Virus record (IMG/VR): IMGVR_UViG_3300046524_000215
Location: 1 to 27,523 of that record
DNA: 27,523 bases
Reading direction: 5' to 3' (one strand)
From: a virus
Part shown: in pieces, positions 222 to 25,674 of the stretch
How positions within the stretch are numbered: position 1 is the stretch's first letter
How the letters are laid out: the number at the start of each line of letters is the position of its first letter
Translations under genes and position numbers: made by a program
Notes under the pieces: model-generated
What the model saw: only the letters and a program-made list of their open reading frames with translations
What the model was told of the DNA's origin: nothing
The model's database searches: none

Positions 222-1058
222 ATGGCATGGTTTGAGAGCACTCTAAGCTTCCTATCACCTGGTTGGGTTGGTTCATTGATTGGGCTGGCTGGCTTGCTTA
301 GTGCTGTGATCGTCTATTTGCTCACACGAAAGCGCACGAGCTTGAGCTTTGCGTATCTCGGAGAGCACCTACTGGGCAGCGAGTCCGACACCCTCCCTGC
401 AGGGATAAGCGTGCAGTACCAGGGAGCGGATATTCCTCGACTGACTCGATCTGTCATCGTCCTCTGGAACAGTGGCGAGAACACGATCATGGGCTCCGAC
501 CTGGTGGATATCGACCCACTTCGTTTCCGTGTCGGGACAGATGGCGAACTGTTGTCTGTGTCAATCTTGAAGGCTAGCCGCTCGGTGAACGACTTCAAAA
601 TCAGACATCGCTCCGCACACGCGCCAAACGAAGCAATCGTGGAATTCAATTACTTCGACTCAGGGGACGGCGTAGTCGTCGAGATCCTTCACACCAGTGC
701 AAGCCGTCAGCCCGATATCAAAGGAACACTTCGAGGTCTACCGAAAGGCTTGAATTCTGTAGGCCGAATGAGCCGATCACCTAGCTTCTTCAAACGAACT
801 GGGTCAGGTCGTGTGTTCTCGATTTTCGCTCCCATCCTAGGTGCCGCCTGGATGCCAATCATCGTCGGCGGTGCGTTCATACTGACCGGTTTGTTCGGAA
901 GCCCTGAAACCCTCAACGCTGTAATGATGTTCAACCTCGAGAAACCGAGCTCTGTCGTGATGGCAATGGGAGCACTTTACGTAGGCGTGGGGTTGGTTTG
1001 TCTGTATGTGTTTCGACGCAAGCACCCCAAGAGCCTCCATGTCGAAGCACTCGAGTGA
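222..1058 (+). CDS. Three-TM membrane protein of unknown function
   Basis: The 278-aa protein starts at an ATG with an AGGGA-type ribosome site about 8 bases upstream. A hydrophobic segment at residues 12-34 is followed by basic TRKR. A soluble domain of about 160 residues (38-195) comes next, with β-rich character and motifs such as VLWNSGENTI and FNYFDSGDGVVVEILH. Two more membrane segments follow at about 197-225 and 245-264, then a basic tail. I recall similar single-domain membrane proteins as scattered accessory genes, but I cannot name a family or function. It stands alone between the tRNA and the repeat cluster, with no partner gene on its strand for 580 bp. Roles such as superinfection exclusion or defence are possible for cargo in this position but nothing in the sequence proves them. 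Confidence 0.8.
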   Translation: MAWFESTLSFLSPGWVGSLIGLAGLLSAVIVYLLTRKRTSLSFAYLGEHLLGSESDTLPAGISVQYQGADIPRLTRSVIVLWNSGENTIMGSDLVDIDPLRFRVGTDGELLSVSILKASRSVNDFKIRHRSAHAPNEAIVEFNYFDSGDGVVVEILHTSASRQPDIKGTLRGLPKGLNSVGRMSRSPSFFKRTGSGRVFSIFAPILGAAWMPIIVGGAFILTGLFGSPETLNAVMMFNLEKPSSVVMAMGALYVGVGLVCLYVFRRKHPKSLHVEALE

Positions 1059-1240
1059 TTTTTGTCCAGCAGTCGGCGTGGCTCCCTTTGCGACTGTTGC
1101 CATGACCGCCTGCCTGGCAATCCCATTCTCAGTAGCGACCGATGAGTAACAGTATCGGGTGTGATAGACCGATTTTTTCGTGCCCTTAGCTGTGCGTACA
1201 CATAATACGAAACGCCCTTACACGAAGCGCCGAAAAATTT
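1059..1240. other. Intergenic, nothing recognisable
   Basis: There is no convincing ORF, hairpin or RNA gene. The sequence becomes AT-richer toward the repeat cluster that begins at 1241. Confidence 0.5.
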
Positions 1241-1563
1241 AGGTTGACCCCTAAAAAGCATGTCAGTTTTGTCAGATTATTATTCTAACTACTGTCTAAT
1301 CCTTCTAATTCAAGCCTCTCCGCCGTTTTGGTTAATGTCAGAAAGGTGTCAGGGACCCGTCAAAACCTGACAAAACCTGACAAAACAGCAGTGTCAGATT
1401 CACTATTTCTAAGCTACTGATTTATAAGTATTTTTTATTTCAGATGGTAAAGCTGACACAAACATCCAACCTCGGTGTCAGATCATAAACCCAGTAAACA
1501 CGCTGCCTCCAGAGCATTTGCTGACAGACATCCATGATCTGACAGGGATTTAGGGGTCAGCCT
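1241..1563. repeat. TGTCAG repeat cluster bounded by inverted 15-mers (origin-like)
   Basis: The hexamer TGTCAG occurs on the plus strand at 1261, 1270, 1336, 1347, 1392 and 1476, and as its complement CTGACA at 1367, 1377, 1453, 1521 and 1539. That is 11 copies in 284 bp, where about 0.14 would be expected by chance. The array is bounded by AGGTTGACCCCTAAA (1241-1255) and its inverted partner TTTAGGGGTCAGCCT (1549-1563), 14 of 15 matching, each followed inward by a TGTCAG after 4-5 bases. An AT-rich stretch lies near 1420-1445. Clustered hexamers in both orientations with an AT-rich core are typical of replication origins bound by an initiator/primase, as in P4-type satellites, or of a multi-site operator. 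No initiator gene is adjacent, so the function is inferred. Confidence 0.8.
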
Positions 1564-1638
1564 GAAAAAACCTTAATGAGGCATCTCGAAGCTATCCTTC
1601 AAAATGCCCCCGACGCGCACTGATCGAGGAGTATAAGC

Positions 1639-1998
1639 ATGCGTAAGACAGCATCCCGAGCAGCAGTACCCATCATCGAAACCATCAAGAACGGCGCGGC
1701 TTGGGAGGTGCATTGGGATTACCAGGAAGCACCCGAAAGTTCGATTCTGTTCCAACGCCGTGAATACCTACGTGGTTACATCGACGGCACCATGGATGAC
1801 ATAGGAGTTCATCCCGACAATGTGTGCTGTGCCAGCGGTCTTACCGGGGCCGTAAAAAAGCTGACCGAAGATCAGGCTGTGAGGTTGCGTGATGCTCTGA
1901 ACCGCGTGCTGATCCCGATCGTGACCAAAGAATTCACGCGCCTTCAGAACATGAACAACCTGCCTCACCTACGAATGGTTGACGCTGAGGAGGCGTGA
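1639..1998 (+). CDS. Hypothetical protein, 119 aa, downstream of the TGTCAG array
   Basis: The ATG follows a strong ribosome site (GAGGAG, about 7 bases upstream). The protein is soluble, with no membrane segment or signal peptide. Its N-terminus is basic (MRKTASRAAVP), its middle is aromatic and acidic (WEVHWDYQEAPESS), there is a CC pair near residue 63, and the C-terminal half is predicted helical. I do not recognise the family. It begins 76 bp after the repeat array, so that array may be its control region. Phage or satellite cargo is the likely origin. Confidence 0.7.
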   Translation: MRKTASRAAVPIIETIKNGAAWEVHWDYQEAPESSILFQRREYLRGYIDGTMDDIGVHPDNVCCASGLTGAVKKLTEDQAVRLRDALNRVLIPIVTKEFTRLQNMNNLPHLRMVDAEEA

Positions 1999-2454
1999 AA
2001 CCCTCTGAAACGTCGTAACTCTCCTGTAACCCTTGCCGCGTATGGGCCTTAGGGGAATTCACACCTCCCCCGCATGCGGGCAATTGCCAGCCGAAAAAGA
2101 TCGTGTGCGTTTTGGAAAACACACCGAATCCCATGTTTTCGAAGTTTTAGTCCAATGAAACCGGGCACTCCTGCTATACCCCCTCCGTGACCGCTCGATG
2201 CATCGCTGTGCAACCGCGCTGCATTTCCTTTCAAAACTTTGCACTCTGTGAAATTGCCGATCGCCTGTAGAGCCCCACGACCCGCCTGGGCTGCAGACTC
2301 GTTTGCACTACATCCGAATTTGCACAAAAAAAGGACGCAAAGCCCGTCGGCGGGAGGGGGATAAGTGCTTTTTCAGACGTTTTTTTCTTCGCACGACGGA
2401 TTTCTCTAGCATCTGCTCTTGCATGGCTCTGATCTTCGTTTCATCGGACTTTCA
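1999..2454. other. Intergenic region without a supported gene
   Basis: Only short ORFs without ribosome sites occur. A 12-bp perfect palindrome, CCCGCATGCGGG, lies at 2069-2080. The rest shows no clear repeats, RNA gene or terminator. Confidence 0.5.
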
Positions 2455-2475
2455 TTGCCTGGCACGTCCAATCGA

Positions 2476-2497
2476 TATACTGTTTATTCATACAGTA
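2476..2497 (+). promoter_or_regulatory. LexA (SOS) box overlapping a -10-like element
   Basis: TACTGT-N8-ACAGTA at 2478-2497 (spacer TTATTCAT) contains the full CTGT-N8-ACAG core and matches the gammaproteobacterial LexA consensus almost exactly. TATACT at 2476-2481 could be a -10 hexamer inside the operator. A -35-like TTGCCT lies at 2455-2460, with a short 15-bp spacer. The box ends 25 bp before the ATG of the next gene, which has a good ribosome site. Confidence 0.88.
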
Positions 2498-2522
2498 TTT
2501 TTAAATTGATTAAGGGTGAGCG

Positions 2523-2783
2523 ATGCGCACGGGGCAATTGGAAACTTCGGGTGATAGGACCAGAGCGATCGCGCAGTGGGAATTACTCCTGCGGGATGAA
2601 GCCACGCTGCTCGAAAACCCTGGACGTCACCACAAAACACTTCTCATTGAGGCTCACACCCTGCACCGCCTTCAGGTGATAAACCGTGATGATCTTAACG
2701 ATCTCCTGGAGCAAGCCGACGGCGCTCTGGCCTATGCAGTGGAAGCACTGATTGATTGTCATAATGGTGATCAGGCGGGTTAG
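2523..2783 (+). CDS. SOS-controlled small protein, 86 aa (first gene of LexA operon)
   Basis: The ATG at 2523 is preceded by AAGGGTGAG, and the LexA box lies 25 bp upstream. The 86-residue product is soluble and mainly helical by composition, with a short charged N-terminus, a central stretch (HHKTLLIEAHTLHRLQ) and an acidic C-terminal helix (DLNDLLEQADGALAYAVEAL). No catalytic motif, zinc site or signal peptide is seen, and I do not recognise the family. It runs codirectionally into the next gene with a 3-bp gap and opposite to the phage tail operon. The position and regulation recall the LexA-controlled orf95-tum operon of coliphage 186, but no homology can be claimed from sequence alone. 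Confidence 0.75.
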   Translation: MRTGQLETSGDRTRAIAQWELLLRDEATLLENPGRHHKTLLIEAHTLHRLQVINRDDLNDLLEQADGALAYAVEALIDCHNGDQAG

Positions 2784-2786
2784 CAC

Positions 2787-3083
2787 ATGCATATGCTCAT
2801 TACCCCTATGAGACGCCAAGGCGTTGCGCTGACGCCCCAAGAGCGGCGGCGCTATCCGGCGATACGGGGCAATGTGATGGTGAATTCAGAAAACAACGCC
2901 GAACTCGGTCGGAGCGCCAATGTGGCTCGGGTGGACGTGGGGATGCCTCTTGATCCGGCCCCGTTACCACGGCTACTAGACGCAACACTGGCGGGGATGG
3001 CTGTGACAGGTTTTGTCTTGAGCGGAATTGAGTACATCGATGGTTGCGCATACGCGCAATCCTGGTGGTGCCGACTGGAGTAG
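2787..3083 (+). CDS. SOS-controlled small protein, 98 aa (second gene of LexA operon)
   Basis: It starts 3 bp after the stop of the 86-aa gene, so it is probably translationally coupled. ATG codons at 2793 and 2808 are alternative starts. The N-terminal half is polar and low in structure. The C-terminal 40 residues look like a compact domain, with LDATLAGMAVTGFVLSGIEY and an aromatic end containing YAQSWWC. There is no helix-turn-helix or protease motif. It has no close family that I can name. A hairpin with a short T run lies 27 bp beyond its stop and closes the operon. An antirepressor, a DNA-damage response effector or a lysis regulator are all possible. The evidence is regulatory context only. 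Confidence 0.7.
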   Translation: MHMLITPMRRQGVALTPQERRRYPAIRGNVMVNSENNAELGRSANVARVDVGMPLDPAPLPRLLDATLAGMAVTGFVLSGIEYIDGCAYAQSWWCRLE

Positions 3084-3109
3084 ATGAGCATCTGAAGTCG
3101 GAAACGAAA

Positions 3110-3135
3110 GCAGGGGCCGAAGCCCCTGCAGTTTT
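3110..3135 (+). terminator. Terminator-like hairpin after the LexA operon
   Basis: An 8-bp perfect GC-rich stem GCAGGGGC (3110-3117) / GCCCCTGC (3122-3129) with a 4-nt loop is followed by AG and TTTT (3132-3135). It lies 27 bp after the stop of the 98-aa gene. Confidence 0.75.
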
Positions 3136-3403
3136 AGCGGAAGATTTGCTGAAGAGTTCGCAGCAATTTAAGAGATAAATAAAGAGCCTCAAAAAACCGG
3201 ATCATTTCTTCTGGATAAAATTTGTAGAGAAAACCATTCATATTTCTTTACCTCGAAGTTTAGCGGAAAAAGCATGATTGAATTTATGCTGCAAAATTCC
3301 CGCTCAAACGAAGCATTTGAAAACTGCAAACTCCGCGACTTTTAACGTTGAAACTAGCGGATCAATTAGTGACGATTTTAGTATGCTCACTATAGCTGTG
3401 CAG

Positions 3404-3860: not shown

Positions 3861-4838
3861 TTATAGAGTAATTGGTTTCAACTTCGCTGCTAACGTCAAA
3901 GCTTGTGCAGCCTTCGCCGTGAATGCCGCCGCATCGGTCGGGCTCGGCATCGGTCCTGGTAAATGCGTGTGAGCGGCCAACTGCGCGTTCATCTGCTGCA
4001 GCAGGTCGAGCATGTCGCACACCACCTGGAACAGATTCACGCTACCGGAACCGATCCAGTTCTTCGGCGCCTGCAGTTGCTGGCTGATTACGGCCACACT
4101 TTTGCGCAAGCCCTGAATCTTCTCCTGCATGTCGCCACCCACCGTGGCGTTGTGCTTCTGCCCCACCACCAGGTTCAGATCACGGCCGGTCGCCTGGTGC
4201 AGGTCGTCCACGGCCGCCAGGCTTGCGGATCCGCCCGACAGCAATTTGAGCGCGCCCAGCGCCTCGATCTTCTTGATGCCACCCACTGACTCGGTCGAAT
4301 GATCGTCCACCGTCCTGGTGTGATTCTGGAAGCTCTCGGTGTTGTCCAGGGCTTCCACTTCACGCTCGATCGCCTTGTCCTGGATCTTGCCATCGGTCTG
4401 GCGCAGCCAGTTGCCGTCGGCATCGACGCGCTGCTGGCAGGCCTCGCTGTGCTGCCACACCTGGTCACCCTTCGGCACCCGGGGCAGACTCAGACCGTGC
4501 GGCAGGATCTGCGTGATGAAAGGCTTGTGCGGCAGTCCATAGGCGAAGCTGACCACCACGGTGGTGCCCTCCTCCGGAAAGCCGAACATGCCGGCTTCTT
4601 GCCCCCCCATGGGTGCCGGCAACGGCAGACTGGTGAGGATCGGCAGATCCGGGTCTGGCTCGCCATCGGGCAGCAGCACTTCGACGTCGACGCCAAAACG
4701 CGGCCGGAAATCGTCACACAGACCAGATGCGGCCGGCGCATCAGGGACGGCCACTACGCGGCCAAAGCGCGGCAGGTGGTAACCGCCACTCAGTTCAGGG
4801 AATTGCCGATCTACTGCACGGCGAATTGCGTCTTCCAT
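3861..4838 (-). CDS. V: Baseplate spike / central puncture protein (gpV-like)
   Basis: The 325-aa protein ends the late operon. The N-terminal part has a gpV/VgrG-type OB fold with motifs such as PRFGRVVAV, RPRFGVDVEVLLPDG and EEGTTVVVSFAYGLPHKPFI. The middle has repetitive β-helix-like sequence (residues about 140-250, with VGGIKKIEALGALKL and VGGDMQEKIQG), as in trimeric spike shafts. A late HTH triplet (AAHTHLPGP) resembles the HxH iron-binding tip of P2-type spikes, although about 40 residues follow it. The start overlaps the end of the preceding hub-like gene by 28 bp. It should sit at the centre of the baseplate and pierce the outer membrane on contraction. Confidence 0.85.
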   Translation of the reverse strand: MEDAIRRAVDRQFPELSGGYHLPRFGRVVAVPDAPAASGLCDDFRPRFGVDVEVLLPDGEPDPDLPILTSLPLPAPMGGQEAGMFGFPEEGTTVVVSFAYGLPHKPFITQILPHGLSLPRVPKGDQVWQHSEACQQRVDADGNWLRQTDGKIQDKAIEREVEALDNTESFQNHTRTVDDHSTESVGGIKKIEALGALKLLSGGSASLAAVDDLHQATGRDLNLVVGQKHNATVGGDMQEKIQGLRKSVAVISQQLQAPKNWIGSGSVNLFQVVCDMLDLLQQMNAQLAAHTHLPGPMPSPTDAAAFTAKAAQALTLAAKLKPITL

Positions 4839-18661: not shown

Positions 18662-19378
18662 TTATTCGGCGGCTTGGGTAGCCAGTTCTTTTGCCAGGGC
18701 CTTGCGAGCGCCCTCCAGGCGTGTGCCTACACCAACAGCGGCGTGCAGTTCAGTGGCGCGCTCAAAGTGCGTGATGGCCTTCGTCCACTCCCTGGCGTCC
18801 AGGGCGCGAATCCCAAGCAACTTGTGGTACTTGGCCGGGATCTGCTCGGTGAGCTGCCATTCACCATCGACACGCGGCAGCAGGTCGGACACATACGGTT
18901 CCGGGCTGCGACCGGCCTTCTGCTCGGCCTCGGCCCACTCGATCACTGCATCAGCGACAAAGGTCGGCACGTCGCGCTTGAAGCGCTCAGGCATTGGCTG
19001 GTTTTGCTCCATGGCGAAGTTCGCCAGATCCAGGCCCGCTTCGAATTGCACCGTGTCGAACAGCCAAACCAAAACCTGCATCACCACCGAGTTCGGGAAA
19101 CTCAATCCGGAATCGCGGTAGCGCTGTACGTAGTCCTGGTACTTGGGCAGCAGCTCGTCACGCTTGAGCTGCTGACGCAGTTCGCGACTGTTGATCGCAC
19201 TGACGCGCTCCAGGTCCTGGGCCAGCGCGTCTTCCATCAACTTCAGGTGCTTCTTGGCGTTGGCTGGGCTGGACAGCGCGGTGGCGGATGAATACACCAC
19301 CGCTTCGGCACCGGCGCGTGCAGCAGCTGCCGGGCCTTCGGCTTGAACGCGGCGCTTGTGCGCCAGTGCCAGGCTCAT
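18662..19378 (-). CDS. M: Terminase small (endonuclease) subunit M
   Basis: The 238-aa protein starts MSLALAHKRRVQAEGPAAAA and includes HLKLMEDALAQDLERVSAIN, KRDELLPKYQDYVQRYRDSG and VLVWLFDTVQFEAGLDLANF, matching the gpM family. The C-terminal region has tetratricopeptide-like helices (ALDAREWTKAITHFERATEL). It shares a TGATG junction with capsid gene N. Together with P it cuts and packages DNA at cos. Confidence 0.92.
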   Translation of the reverse strand: MSLALAHKRRVQAEGPAAAARAGAEAVVYSSATALSSPANAKKHLKLMEDALAQDLERVSAINSRELRQQLKRDELLPKYQDYVQRYRDSGLSFPNSVVMQVLVWLFDTVQFEAGLDLANFAMEQNQPMPERFKRDVPTFVADAVIEWAEAEQKAGRSPEPYVSDLLPRVDGEWQLTEQIPAKYHKLLGIRALDAREWTKAITHFERATELHAAVGVGTRLEGARKALAKELATQAAE

Positions 19379-20394
19379 CAGATCAACTCCACGTTTTCAG
19401 CGGCCGCGAATTTTTCCAGCTGCTCGATCACGTAGCCTTCGTTTCGGCCGTTGTAATCCTCGACGCGGGAGCGCTTCGGGTTTTCGATCAGGTGACGACG
19501 CCAGCTGCTGTCCTGGAAGTAGATCGACAGATTGTCCCAGCTGGTGACGACCACGGCGTTGACCGGGAAATGCGGCACGGTGAAGGTCGGCAGACCGCCA
19601 TAGGTCGCGATGACCTGGGCGCTTTCGATGCGCTCCTTCTCGGTCGGTTTGCCGGCCTGGTTGGAATACAGCTTGGCCTTGTCGGCAGCCAGCAGATCAC
19701 TGCCGACGATCGCTACCAGGTCGCCGCCATCACGGAAGACGGAGCTGATCATCTGCTTGGTGTCGTGCACCAGGGCGTCGAGGTTCTCGTAATCGCCGCC
19801 GGCGCCGAGCTTAATTTTCCCAGCCGTGGCGCCTTCGTGCAGGACCTGCTCGGGAATCTGCTCGCGGGCCAGTTGCAGCCAACCCTTGTTCACGTCCTGT
19901 AGCATCGGGTAGGTGGCCAGATTGGTCTGTGCTGCAGCGTGAGTGCCGTGCCAGCCAATCATGATGCGATCCAGGGCGATCTGTTTCTGCACCGCTGCCG
20001 AGTAGCGATCGGCGAAGTCCGGGAATTTCGCCCAACTGTCGATTTTGGCGAATGGCAGACCGACGTCCGACTCAGTGGCGAACAGCTCGTAGCCCTCGCC
20101 AGTCAGGTCGGAAACGTCCTTGGCTTCGCGATCGGTGGTCTTGGTGTTGGTGCGGCTGGTGACTGGACCGTTCACACCGAACATGACCTTTTCGCCCTTG
20201 ATCTCAGTGACCGGTACGACGTTGATGCGCTCGAGGAAATCGGCGCGCTCGGTGATCTTGTCGTTCAGTTCCTGGGCGATGCTCGGCTCGACGTTGAACT
20301 GGCGAGTTACATCAACGCCGTAGGTCTCACCGATTGCCAAGCACAGGGCGGAGTATTGCAGTAAGGCGCGGTTGGACAGAGATTTCTGGCTCAT
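19378..20394 (-). CDS. N: Major capsid protein N
   Basis: The 338-aa protein fits the P2 gpN family in length and motifs: LSNRALLQYSALCLAIGETY, RTNTKTTDREAKDVSDLTG, IGWHGTHAA and a C-terminal EDYNGRNEGYVIEQLEKF. The N-terminal helical region is likely trimmed by the O protease during maturation. It starts one base after scaffold gene O ends. Confidence 0.95.
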   Translation of the reverse strand: MSQKSLSNRALLQYSALCLAIGETYGVDVTRQFNVEPSIAQELNDKITERADFLERINVVPVTEIKGEKVMFGVNGPVTSRTNTKTTDREAKDVSDLTGEGYELFATESDVGLPFAKIDSWAKFPDFADRYSAAVQKQIALDRIMIGWHGTHAAAQTNLATYPMLQDVNKGWLQLAREQIPEQVLHEGATAGKIKLGAGGDYENLDALVHDTKQMISSVFRDGGDLVAIVGSDLLAADKAKLYSNQAGKPTEKERIESAQVIATYGGLPTFTVPHFPVNAVVVTSWDNLSIYFQDSSWRRHLIENPKRSRVEDYNGRNEGYVIEQLEKFAAAENVELI

Positions 20395-20395
20395 A

Positions 20396-21304
20396 TCACA
20401 GCACCCGCTTTTTGGTTTTGTCGGCCGGGCCAGTGGTGCGCGGGACCTGGCGAGTGCTGACGGTGTTGAACGCCTTGCTCAGCAGCTTCTCGATGCTGGC
20501 CAGACGCTTGTCCGTGTCGCCGCCTTTACGGGCGAACTCGCGGTCGGTCTCGACCTGGTCAACGATGTCCTTCACAGCGGATTCAACATCGTCGACTTCG
20601 TCAACGATCGGATCCACGACCTCTTCGGTGACGGGTTCGATCACGGTCTGAATGCCTGCAGCAACAAGCAACAGCTGCTCCAGCAGTGCCTTCAGCGCCT
20701 TGGCTGTAGCTTCATCCATTGGGGGTTTGCTCTCGGTTGGGGTTTGCGGGGATGCGGGGGTTTCTTCGGCGCCGAAGCGCTTGAGCAGCCCCGCGAACAA
20801 CGCGACAAACTTGTTCAACTCGCCTTGCGGCGGGTCGTCGCGTAGCGGGCCAAGTTCGTGGGAGGCGGCGAAATACGCGGCCTTGCTAGTCTTGTTCGAA
20901 AAGTAGAGTTCCTGAGTGCCCAGGCTAGCGGGTTGATCAGTGACCCCGAGGCCGGTCAGGTAAGCTTTGCCGGTGTTCGCGAAGTTGGGGGTGATCTCGA
21001 TGCTGGTGAACAGCTTTTCGCCCTGGTCGTTGAGCCACAGCAATTTGTTGTTGGGCTTCAACTGAGCCTCGAGGGCAATCTGCCCCGGGGCCAGATCGTC
21101 GCCCTCTTCCACTAGGCGTACCGCGAAGACGGTGCCGTGCGAACCTGGCCAGCGTTCGTGGTCGCACCAGATCACAGCGGTATAAAGGGACGGCTTGTAG
21201 GTATCAGCGATATCACGCAGTTCCTGGGGAAGGATCTCGCGACCATCTACGGTCGGGCCGCTGGTGGCGACACGTTTCCAGAACGAAACAAGGGAACGGG
21301 GCAT
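20396..21304 (-). CDS. O: Capsid scaffolding protein / maturation protease O
   Basis: The 302-aa protein is of the P2 gpO family. The N-terminal protease part shows Asp20 (TVDGREI), His49 (WCDHERWPG) and Ser101 (LFTSIEITPN), in register with the catalytic Asp-His-Ser known for P2 gpO. A proline-rich linker near 180-195 precedes an acidic scaffold region (EPVTEEVVDPIVDEVDDVES) and a C-terminal helix. It should direct capsid assembly and then cleave itself and N. It opens the leftward late operon. Confidence 0.94.
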   Translation of the reverse strand: MPRSLVSFWKRVATSGPTVDGREILPQELRDIADTYKPSLYTAVIWCDHERWPGSHGTVFAVRLVEEGDDLAPGQIALEAQLKPNNKLLWLNDQGEKLFTSIEITPNFANTGKAYLTGLGVTDQPASLGTQELYFSNKTSKAAYFAASHELGPLRDDPPQGELNKFVALFAGLLKRFGAEETPASPQTPTESKPPMDEATAKALKALLEQLLLVAAGIQTVIEPVTEEVVDPIVDEVDDVESAVKDIVDQVETDREFARKGGDTDKRLASIEKLLSKAFNTVSTRQVPRTTGPADKTKKRVL

Positions 21305-25004: not shown

Positions 25005-25352
25005 TTAATTCGATCCTTTGGCGGCGTCATCGGCCATGGCTTTCAGGAAACGACGGATCGCTTCCTGGTCGAATGGCGTGATGCTTCTGTATTGCTTGAT
25101 CAATTTCTCTTCTTCTGGAGAAAACAGTTGCCCAAGCGGCGTGGAACGCCGGCCAGTCAGCACAAACGCCGCATCTACACCGCACTCTTCAAGTGCCGCC
25201 ACATAGCGAAGGTCGAGCGAATTCGCCCCCAGTTCATAGTTTTTTTGGGTCCCCCGACTCACCCCAAGAAGCACTCCAAACTCTGTTTGATTTAATCCTA
25301 AGCGCTCGCGCTCTTCCCTCAGGCGTTCACCTACTTGATCCGCTATGAGCAT
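25005..25352 (-). CDS. XRE-family phage repressor (C-like), no autocleavage domain
   Basis: The start at 25352 (MLIADQVGERLREERERLGL) is chosen because GGTGA lies 8 bases upstream; starts at 25370 or a TTG at 25394 would add 6-14 residues and cover the likely operators. The 115-aa protein has an N-terminal helix-turn-helix (QTEFGVLLGVSRGTQKNYEL) and a short C-terminal helical part (TPFDQEAIRRFLKAMADDAA) for dimerisation. It lacks the LexA/S24 peptidase region, so RecA-driven self-cleavage is not expected. It is divergent from the Cro-like gene and should hold the lysogenic state. Confidence 0.88.
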   Translation of the reverse strand: MLIADQVGERLREERERLGLNQTEFGVLLGVSRGTQKNYELGANSLDLRYVAALEECGVDAAFVLTGRRSTPLGQLFSPEEEKLIKQYRSITPFDQEAIRRFLKAMADDAAKGSN

Positions 25353-25374
25353 TTTTTTATTCACCATCATTGAC

Positions 25375-25394
25375 TTGATCAATTTTTTGACCAA
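25375..25394. promoter_or_regulatory. Putative operators between repressor and Cro-like gene
   Basis: TTGATCAA (25375-25382, perfect palindrome) and TTGACCAA (25387-25394) lie 12 bp apart just upstream of the repressor start. ACAAACG follows twice at 25407-25413 and 25423-25429. These are candidates for repressor and Cro binding. No promoter hexamers stand out. Confidence 0.5.
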
Positions 25395-25444
25395 GAATCA
25401 CCACAGACAAACGTAAACAACCACAAACGAACAGAGCAAACACT

Positions 25445-25645
25445 ATGCCCGCCACTGTTACGCCCGAGCAAGCCCGCGCTGATCTGGATCGCAGAGGAAT
25501 AAGCATTGCGGAATTCAGCCGGAAATATGGACTGAACAAAAATTTAGTCAGCGACCTATTGAACGGTCGGATCAAAGGTCGCCGTGGGGAGGCACATCGC
25601 GCCGCCGTACTACTCGGTATCAAAGACGGCGTAATCGAACAGTAA
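25445..25645 (+). CDS. Cro-like small DNA-binding protein
   Basis: The 66-aa protein is a small helix-turn-helix protein of the BcepMu gp16-like kind: ISIAEFSRKYGLNKNLVSDL followed by LNGRIKGRRGEAHRAAVLLG. It is divergent from the XRE repressor with 92 bp between the two starts, the usual position of cro/cox genes. It should favour lytic growth and may also serve as an excision factor. The ribosome site is weak. Confidence 0.85.
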   Translation: MPATVTPEQARADLDRRGISIAEFSRKYGLNKNLVSDLLNGRIKGRRGEAHRAAVLLGIKDGVIEQ

Positions 25646-25674
25646 CGGCACTGGGCCACAGGAAAAAGCAGAAC

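Follow-up and report, generated by a model that had tools for sequence, protein, structure and literature searches.

What does the two-gene operon between a tRNA gene and the tail genes of this Pseudomonas phage do, and does it serve to induce the prophage? The window, i.e. the whole stretch of DNA analysed here, is the 27,523-base virus record IMGVR_UViG_3300046524_000215, a Pseudomonas P2-like phage whose closest annotated relative is UFJF_PfPro (Peduoviridae). The original prediction read the operon as a LexA-controlled induction module in the manner of Tum of coliphage 186, with one of the two proteins acting as an SOS-induced antirepressor, and named host-derived damage-response cargo as the alternative. 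The window contains minus-strand tail genes, a terminase, an ogr-like gene, an HTH repressor and a CII/YmfL-type gene. The operon is on the plus strand and thus opposite to the tail genes, as had been predicted. It lies between the tRNA-Thr gene, which is likely the attachment site of the phage, and a tail gene that we take to be gpD from its position and the gene order of P2. The features are:

36-111, tRNA-Thr gene
2478-2497, LexA box TACTGTTTATTCATACAGTA, a perfect outer palindrome TACTGT-N8-ACAGTA that is conserved in relatives
about 2512-2519, plus strand, putative ribosome binding site of ORF1, AAGGGTGA, as read from the sequence
2523-2783, plus strand, ORF1, predicted helical protein of 86 aa (PHROG 6137), stop codon TAG followed by 3 bases
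2787-3083, plus strand, ORF2, predicted all-beta protein of 98 aa (PHROG 5560)
3110-3129, hairpin with an 8-pair stem where the SOS operon and the late operon converge, a possible terminator
3861-4838, minus strand, gpD-like tail gene that closes the late operon; it marks the slot and served as query of the gpD scan
25005-25352, minus strand, HTH immunity repressor without S24 domain, outside the operon and given for context

The LexA box had been described as near-consensus; it matches TACTGT-N8-ACAGTA exactly and is the single exact occurrence in the window. With up to three mismatches allowed we found 3 LexA-type matches compared to 3.47 expected by chance; such matches are no commoner than chance and thus the exact match alone stands out. 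Late-gene DNA of sibling phages, 459,000 bases in all, contained one box-like site at 13/20 and none of at least 14/20. A chance origin of the box was rejected on the grounds of the exact palindrome, this rarity and the conservation of the box before the gene pair. The ribosome site and the two genes of 86 and 98 aa with their 3-bp gap were found as predicted, and a simple scan detected no sigma-70-like promoter in 2400-3300. Part of the terminator claim stood: the hairpin is present and the stretch 3085-3140 folds with −19.9 kcal/mol (z −1.98; 8 of 200 shuffles were equally good), but with just four Ts on the plus strand it is weaker there than had been stated. The terminator scan places its call on the minus strand, so that the hairpin may serve the converging late operon.

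A scan of virus contigs with ORF2 matched 141 stretches and gave 135 relatives, of which the best 80 were kept. ORF1 lay directly upstream of ORF2 in all 80, and 78 showed a LexA-like box (at least 13/20) just before ORF1; the other two end at the contig edge. Because this arrangement is conserved across relatives, a two-gene unit under LexA control is strongly supported at the level of sequence. The median dN/dS against the window was 0.25 for ORF1 (16 pairs) and 0.06 for ORF2 (63 pairs), computed over pairs of equal length with a synonymous difference of 0.02-0.7 and including some near-duplicates from overlapping scans, and indicates that both genes are under purifying selection.

When bacterial genomes were scanned with an ORF2 alignment, 114 relatives were obtained; the best 80 were kept and represent 79 distinct loci, all in Pseudomonas apart from one Stutzerimonas, one Paraburkholderia and two Caballeronia. 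We found an ORF2 match, in some cases a fragment or one with stops, in 59 of 249 sampled Pseudomonas genomes when scoring at most 20 candidates per genome. Both gene orders occur: pooled over the scans, which overlap and retain duplicates, ORF1-ORF2 was observed at 152 places and ORF2-ORF1 at 22 (113 and 22 distinct ORF1 sequences). A profile built from ORF1 of the first order recovers 21 of the 22 ORF1 proteins of the reversed order and none of 22 shuffled ones. We surveyed three named loci and 77 genome loci with a usable ORF2 for boxes of at least 13/20 within 160 bases upstream. A box was present at 32 of 33 ORF1-ORF2 loci, at all 22 ORF2-ORF1 loci and at 15 of 25 loci with ORF2 and no intact ORF1. 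As boxes are found upstream in both arrangements, the pair is an SOS-type unit in either order. The 25 loci (of 80) that have no intact recognised ORF1 neighbour include at least two with a broken ORF1 (L129 and L142). Phage Medea1 shows the order LexA box-ORF2-ORF1, adjoining an integrase.

Mobile elements, and not a fixed host locus, carry most of the relatives that we examined. For close relatives such a fixed locus was considered and rejected: among the 34 genome loci whose best segment has at least 60% identity, gpD was located within 9 kb in 30, the remaining four being L097, L101, L129 and L152. In five loci (L042, L047, L054, L055 and L061) the ORF1-ORF2 operon is carried by another phage type with a different overall gene order, and a related HTH repressor is encoded within about 5 kb of it.

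The slot beyond gpD varies between sibling phages. The gpD scan matched 445 stretches and gave 444 relatives; of the best 80 that were kept, 63 had at least 2 kb of sequence beyond gpD. In these 63 loci the slot contained the operon in 34 cases, ORF2 alone in two, umuDC under a LexA box in four (L215, L216, L221 and L222, with SRAP in addition in L221), an ORF1-domain gene beside SRAP in one and none of these cassettes in 22. Family searches identified UmuC (IMS domains) and UmuD in L215 and SRAP in L221 and L176; the remaining umuDC assignments were made from tblastn and near-identical frames. The ORF1-domain gene (L176:10836-11546) lies just before SRAP, has a LexA-like box of 14/20 and encodes a 236-aa protein (PHROG 19595) whose N-terminus corresponds to the ORF1 domain (E 1.5e-12 with the reversed-order profile) and which carries CxxC motifs near its C-terminal end.

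SRAP and UmuD also occur next to the pair outside the P2-like slot. We identified the neighbours by direct tblastn in the 77 usable genome loci, where gpD was nearby in 32 and absent in 45. In the 45 loci without gpD, SRAP was detected within 1 kb in 14, at 2-3 kb in three more and at 4-10 kb in none, and UmuD within 1 kb in five. Counted together, SRAP/YedK or UmuD was found within 2 kb in 17 of the 45 and neither in 28. Phage pAN has the arrangement SRAP-ORF2. A P. cerasi plasmid carries a divergent SRAP gene and, after it, ORF2, a gene for a 116-aa UmuD-like protein and ORF1; this UmuD form is short, as is UmuD'. A short UmuD' form on a mobile element is also known from HumD of phage P1, which is thus similar to the plasmid and prophage cassettes with ORF1/ORF2, although ORF1 and ORF2 themselves are not relatives of UmuD. 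By eye we recognised no UmuC beside the pair in six loci with listed open frames. In P2-like phages the pair is usually without UmuD or SRAP. Shared SOS gene neighbourhoods of SRAP (DUF159), UmuD and UmuC, also in prophages in the case of SRAP, are described in PMC3765255. The same three proteins are the partners of our pair, whereas the excerpt of that paper makes no mention of ORF1/ORF2, and P2-like phages usually carry the pair without companions. The association may reflect only shared regulation, as adjacent SOS cargo need not act together.

The XRE repressor of the window had been predicted to have no LexA/S24 autocleavage part, and this is correct: HTH families alone pass the cut-off, and no S24 match was obtained with PF00717 in this record, possibly a fragment. 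Divergent from the repressor is a 66-aa gene (25445-25645) that we named Cro-like by its position, and the minus-strand frame 25357-25659 is its antisense. Across operon-bearing virus records, 32 of 36 had no S24 match and four had S24 domains; three of these four frames have the size of a CI-like repressor and the fourth, of 150 aa, looks like UmuD. The S24 frames of Medea1 and pAN, of 251 and 283 aa, are likewise repressor-sized. In L029 (record G018:33679-34023) a 150-aa S24/UmuD-like frame is located in the same slot as an ORF1-ORF2 operon, roughly 1.4 kb away from where the operon begins. Of the 33 gpD contigs of at least 28 kb, 27 have slot room, and we grouped the repressors of these 27 by best query (numbers are phages with operon/umuDC/neither):

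window-like HTH repressor, 5/1/2
PfPro-like HTH repressor, 4/0/3
third HTH repressor type, 3/0/1
other HTH repressor, below 50% to every query (L218, L194), 1/0/1
S24 repressor, 2/2/0
unassigned repressor, 0/1/1

The original prediction had suggested co-occurrence with the repressor type as a check, and we found no association. A tie of the operon to repressors without S24 was rejected with Fisher p = 1.0 (2/2 versus 13/8 in 25 phages, counts compiled by hand and two phages without assigned repressor left out). In this small sample the presence of the operon could not be predicted from the repressor type. It accompanies at least four immunity types, S24 repressors included (L187 and L226, also L052 and L063), and repressors 92-93% identical to that of the window occur in phages without the operon, namely L198 and L216, the latter having umuDC instead. 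The same picture was obtained from the sequences. For 26 operon phages with HTH repressors the Mantel correlation between ORF1 and ORF2 distances was 0.63 (p 0.0002), which is partly expected as the genes are physically linked. Against the repressor neither ORF1 (r 0.09, p 0.06) nor ORF2 (r 0.07, p 0.13) was clearly correlated; ORF1 and gpD distances were weakly correlated (r 0.23, p 0.004) and ORF2 and gpD distances were uncorrelated. In L203 and L204 the ORF1 proteins are 99% alike and the repressors 51% alike, whereas in L032 and L218 the repressors are 99% and the ORF1 proteins 54% alike. The two phages of the first pair (L203/L255 and L204/L256) have gpD 98% alike as well, so that here an unchanged operon accompanies an immunity region that was exchanged. 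As the operon tracks neither the type nor the sequence of the repressor, a repressor-matched antirepressor was rejected.

The proteins themselves gave few clues. Neither had a match in Pfam or PADLOC, the NCBIfam and PDB-sequence searches were unproductive, a tblastn comparison of ORF1 with phages gave no match, Pfam found no S24 peptidase domain in ORF1 or ORF2, and the family and fold searches assigned no biochemical activity to either. The confident AlphaFold2 model of ORF2 (pLDDT 94.2, pTM 0.83) has six strands and one short helix. Its best Foldseek match among solved structures was a Ran-binding domain (E 0.12, TMq 0.51), a structural aligner ranked a PH domain first (Z 6.0 over 75 residues, 2.9 Å) and the best viral structure match had E 0.24. 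The all-beta fold thus has no clear match among solved structures, and the model would be compatible with a possible PH-like partial barrel of the Ran-binding, EVH1 or PH type. ORF1 is helical in a model of the two proteins fused, in which their mutual arrangement is unreliable (pTM 0.44); VIA-align gave generic helical matches for this model with YlaN as the best (Z 8.5). A literature search found no account of the ORF1-ORF2 pair among the titles and abstract openings listed, though unnamed genes are easily missed by a word search.

How do these results bear on a Tum-like module, in which release from LexA would let ORF1 or ORF2 bind the non-cleavable HTH repressor and free the lytic promoter, with a DinI-like partner? 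The 186 p95-tum operon, which encodes an antirepressor with a DinI-like half, is likewise a LexA-controlled small-protein operon of a P2-like phage, and its annotated LexA site is also TACTGT-N8-ACAGTA. The operon of the window differs in having no convincing sequence relation, another position and no bond to a repressor type. The claim that the tum operon lies at the late-gene end is at odds with NC_001317, where tum (29,082-29,522) follows replication gene A and not the late genes, so that the positions differ; late gene D (19,373-20,542) has gene B, the ogr homolog, and att next to its end. ORF1 gave no match to Tum. The reversed-order ORF2 profile scored 7.6 bits on the DinI-like half of Tum, which was reached by one of 1919 reported shuffles (2000 made), but the P2-type ORF2 profile scored 0.7 bits. 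This similarity is a hint at most, as 24 profile-protein pairs were tried and ORF2 is predicted to have strands where the DinI fold, which contains helices, has a helix. A C-terminal segment YRS..P.DQ...RRF..A.ADD, common to the HTH query repressors, could be the target of one antirepressor, and phages without the operon could simply be non-inducible like P2 (PMC7708051). The best remaining argument comes from the Gifsy (GfoA/GftA) and PSP3 operons, where a LexA-controlled antirepressor is combined with a DinI-like protein in both gene orders (PMC3121763). Like our pair these are two small LexA-controlled genes whose order varies between phages; unlike it, their antirepressor acts on the phage's own repressor, and the GfoA/GftA sequences were outside our comparison. 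Together with the 32 S24-free records and the missing S24 part in the window these points speak for the module. Against it stand the missing association with repressor type, the coexistence with S24 repressors, the separate divergence of operon and repressor, and relatives that are found on a plasmid and in Medea1 and pAN with their repressor-sized S24 proteins. The Tum-like reading is thus unsupported and we consider it unlikely.

DinI and PsiB are the models for a different role, in which the two proteins would bind RecA, LexA or UmuD and either damp or extend the SOS response, which would keep the prophage from being induced too readily. Small paired genes behind a LexA box, partly beside UmuD and SRAP, would suit such a governor, and GIL01 gp7, a small phage protein that modulates LexA, offers a precedent (PMC4551915). 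There was no convincing sequence match to a protein of this kind, however, and among the fold matches listed for ORF2 neither DinI, UmuD nor LexA was present; we regard this role as rather doubtful. Two small adjacent genes behind one LexA box might also recall a damage-switched toxin-antitoxin-like or cell-cycle-arrest pair. Such a pair is hard to reconcile with ORF2 loci that have no intact recognised ORF1 (25/80), with the fusion of the ORF1 domain elsewhere and with the empty PADLOC and Pfam searches, and is highly improbable.

Damage-response cargo is better supported than a Tum-like antirepressor, and of the original alternatives it fits best, though for an element called host-derived the relatives are mostly on mobile elements. 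Our main reading, to which we give a probability of roughly 55%, is a mobile, SOS-regulated accessory cassette of two proteins for damage tolerance or SOS modulation that is independent of the phage repressor. Its place would be the exchangeable slot that separates tail gene gpD from the attachment site. LexA would bind and repress the operon until DNA damage lifts the repression, and helical ORF1 and all-beta ORF2 would then act jointly, probably as a complex, on the damage-tolerance or RecA/UmuD machinery of the host. The pair might work alongside phage-borne UmuDC/UmuD and SRAP or replace them, and the benefit would be that cell or phage DNA is protected, or the SOS response tuned, without involvement of the phage repressor. 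More tentatively, ORF1 and ORF2 could be two new DNA-damage-tolerance components of a LexA module that is spread by phages and plasmids and combines with UmuD', UmuC and SRAP. ORF2 would then represent a novel SOS effector of all-beta fold, and helical ORF1 would serve as an adaptor that also occurs joined to a C-terminal part resembling a zinc ribbon.

If the cassette reading is true, about a quarter of the sampled Pseudomonas species genomes (59/249) carry an uncharacterised damage-induced gene, mostly on mobile elements in the cases examined, while in some P2-like phages a mutagenic polymerase takes its place. Prophage carriage would then be linked to how well environmental pseudomonads survive DNA damage and how fast they mutate. 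The results weaken the attractive Tum-like induction story and leave the pair as a well-bounded candidate for a new SOS effector.

Some loci show further peculiarities. L117 and L060 each have two copies of ORF2. The interval between tRNA-Thr and the operon of the window (222-1998) holds a 278-aa open reading frame with hydrophobic segments, as judged by eye, and encodes a 119-aa protein (PHROG 9349); seven other loci likewise have this protein upstream of ORF2, at a distance of about 1.15 kb.
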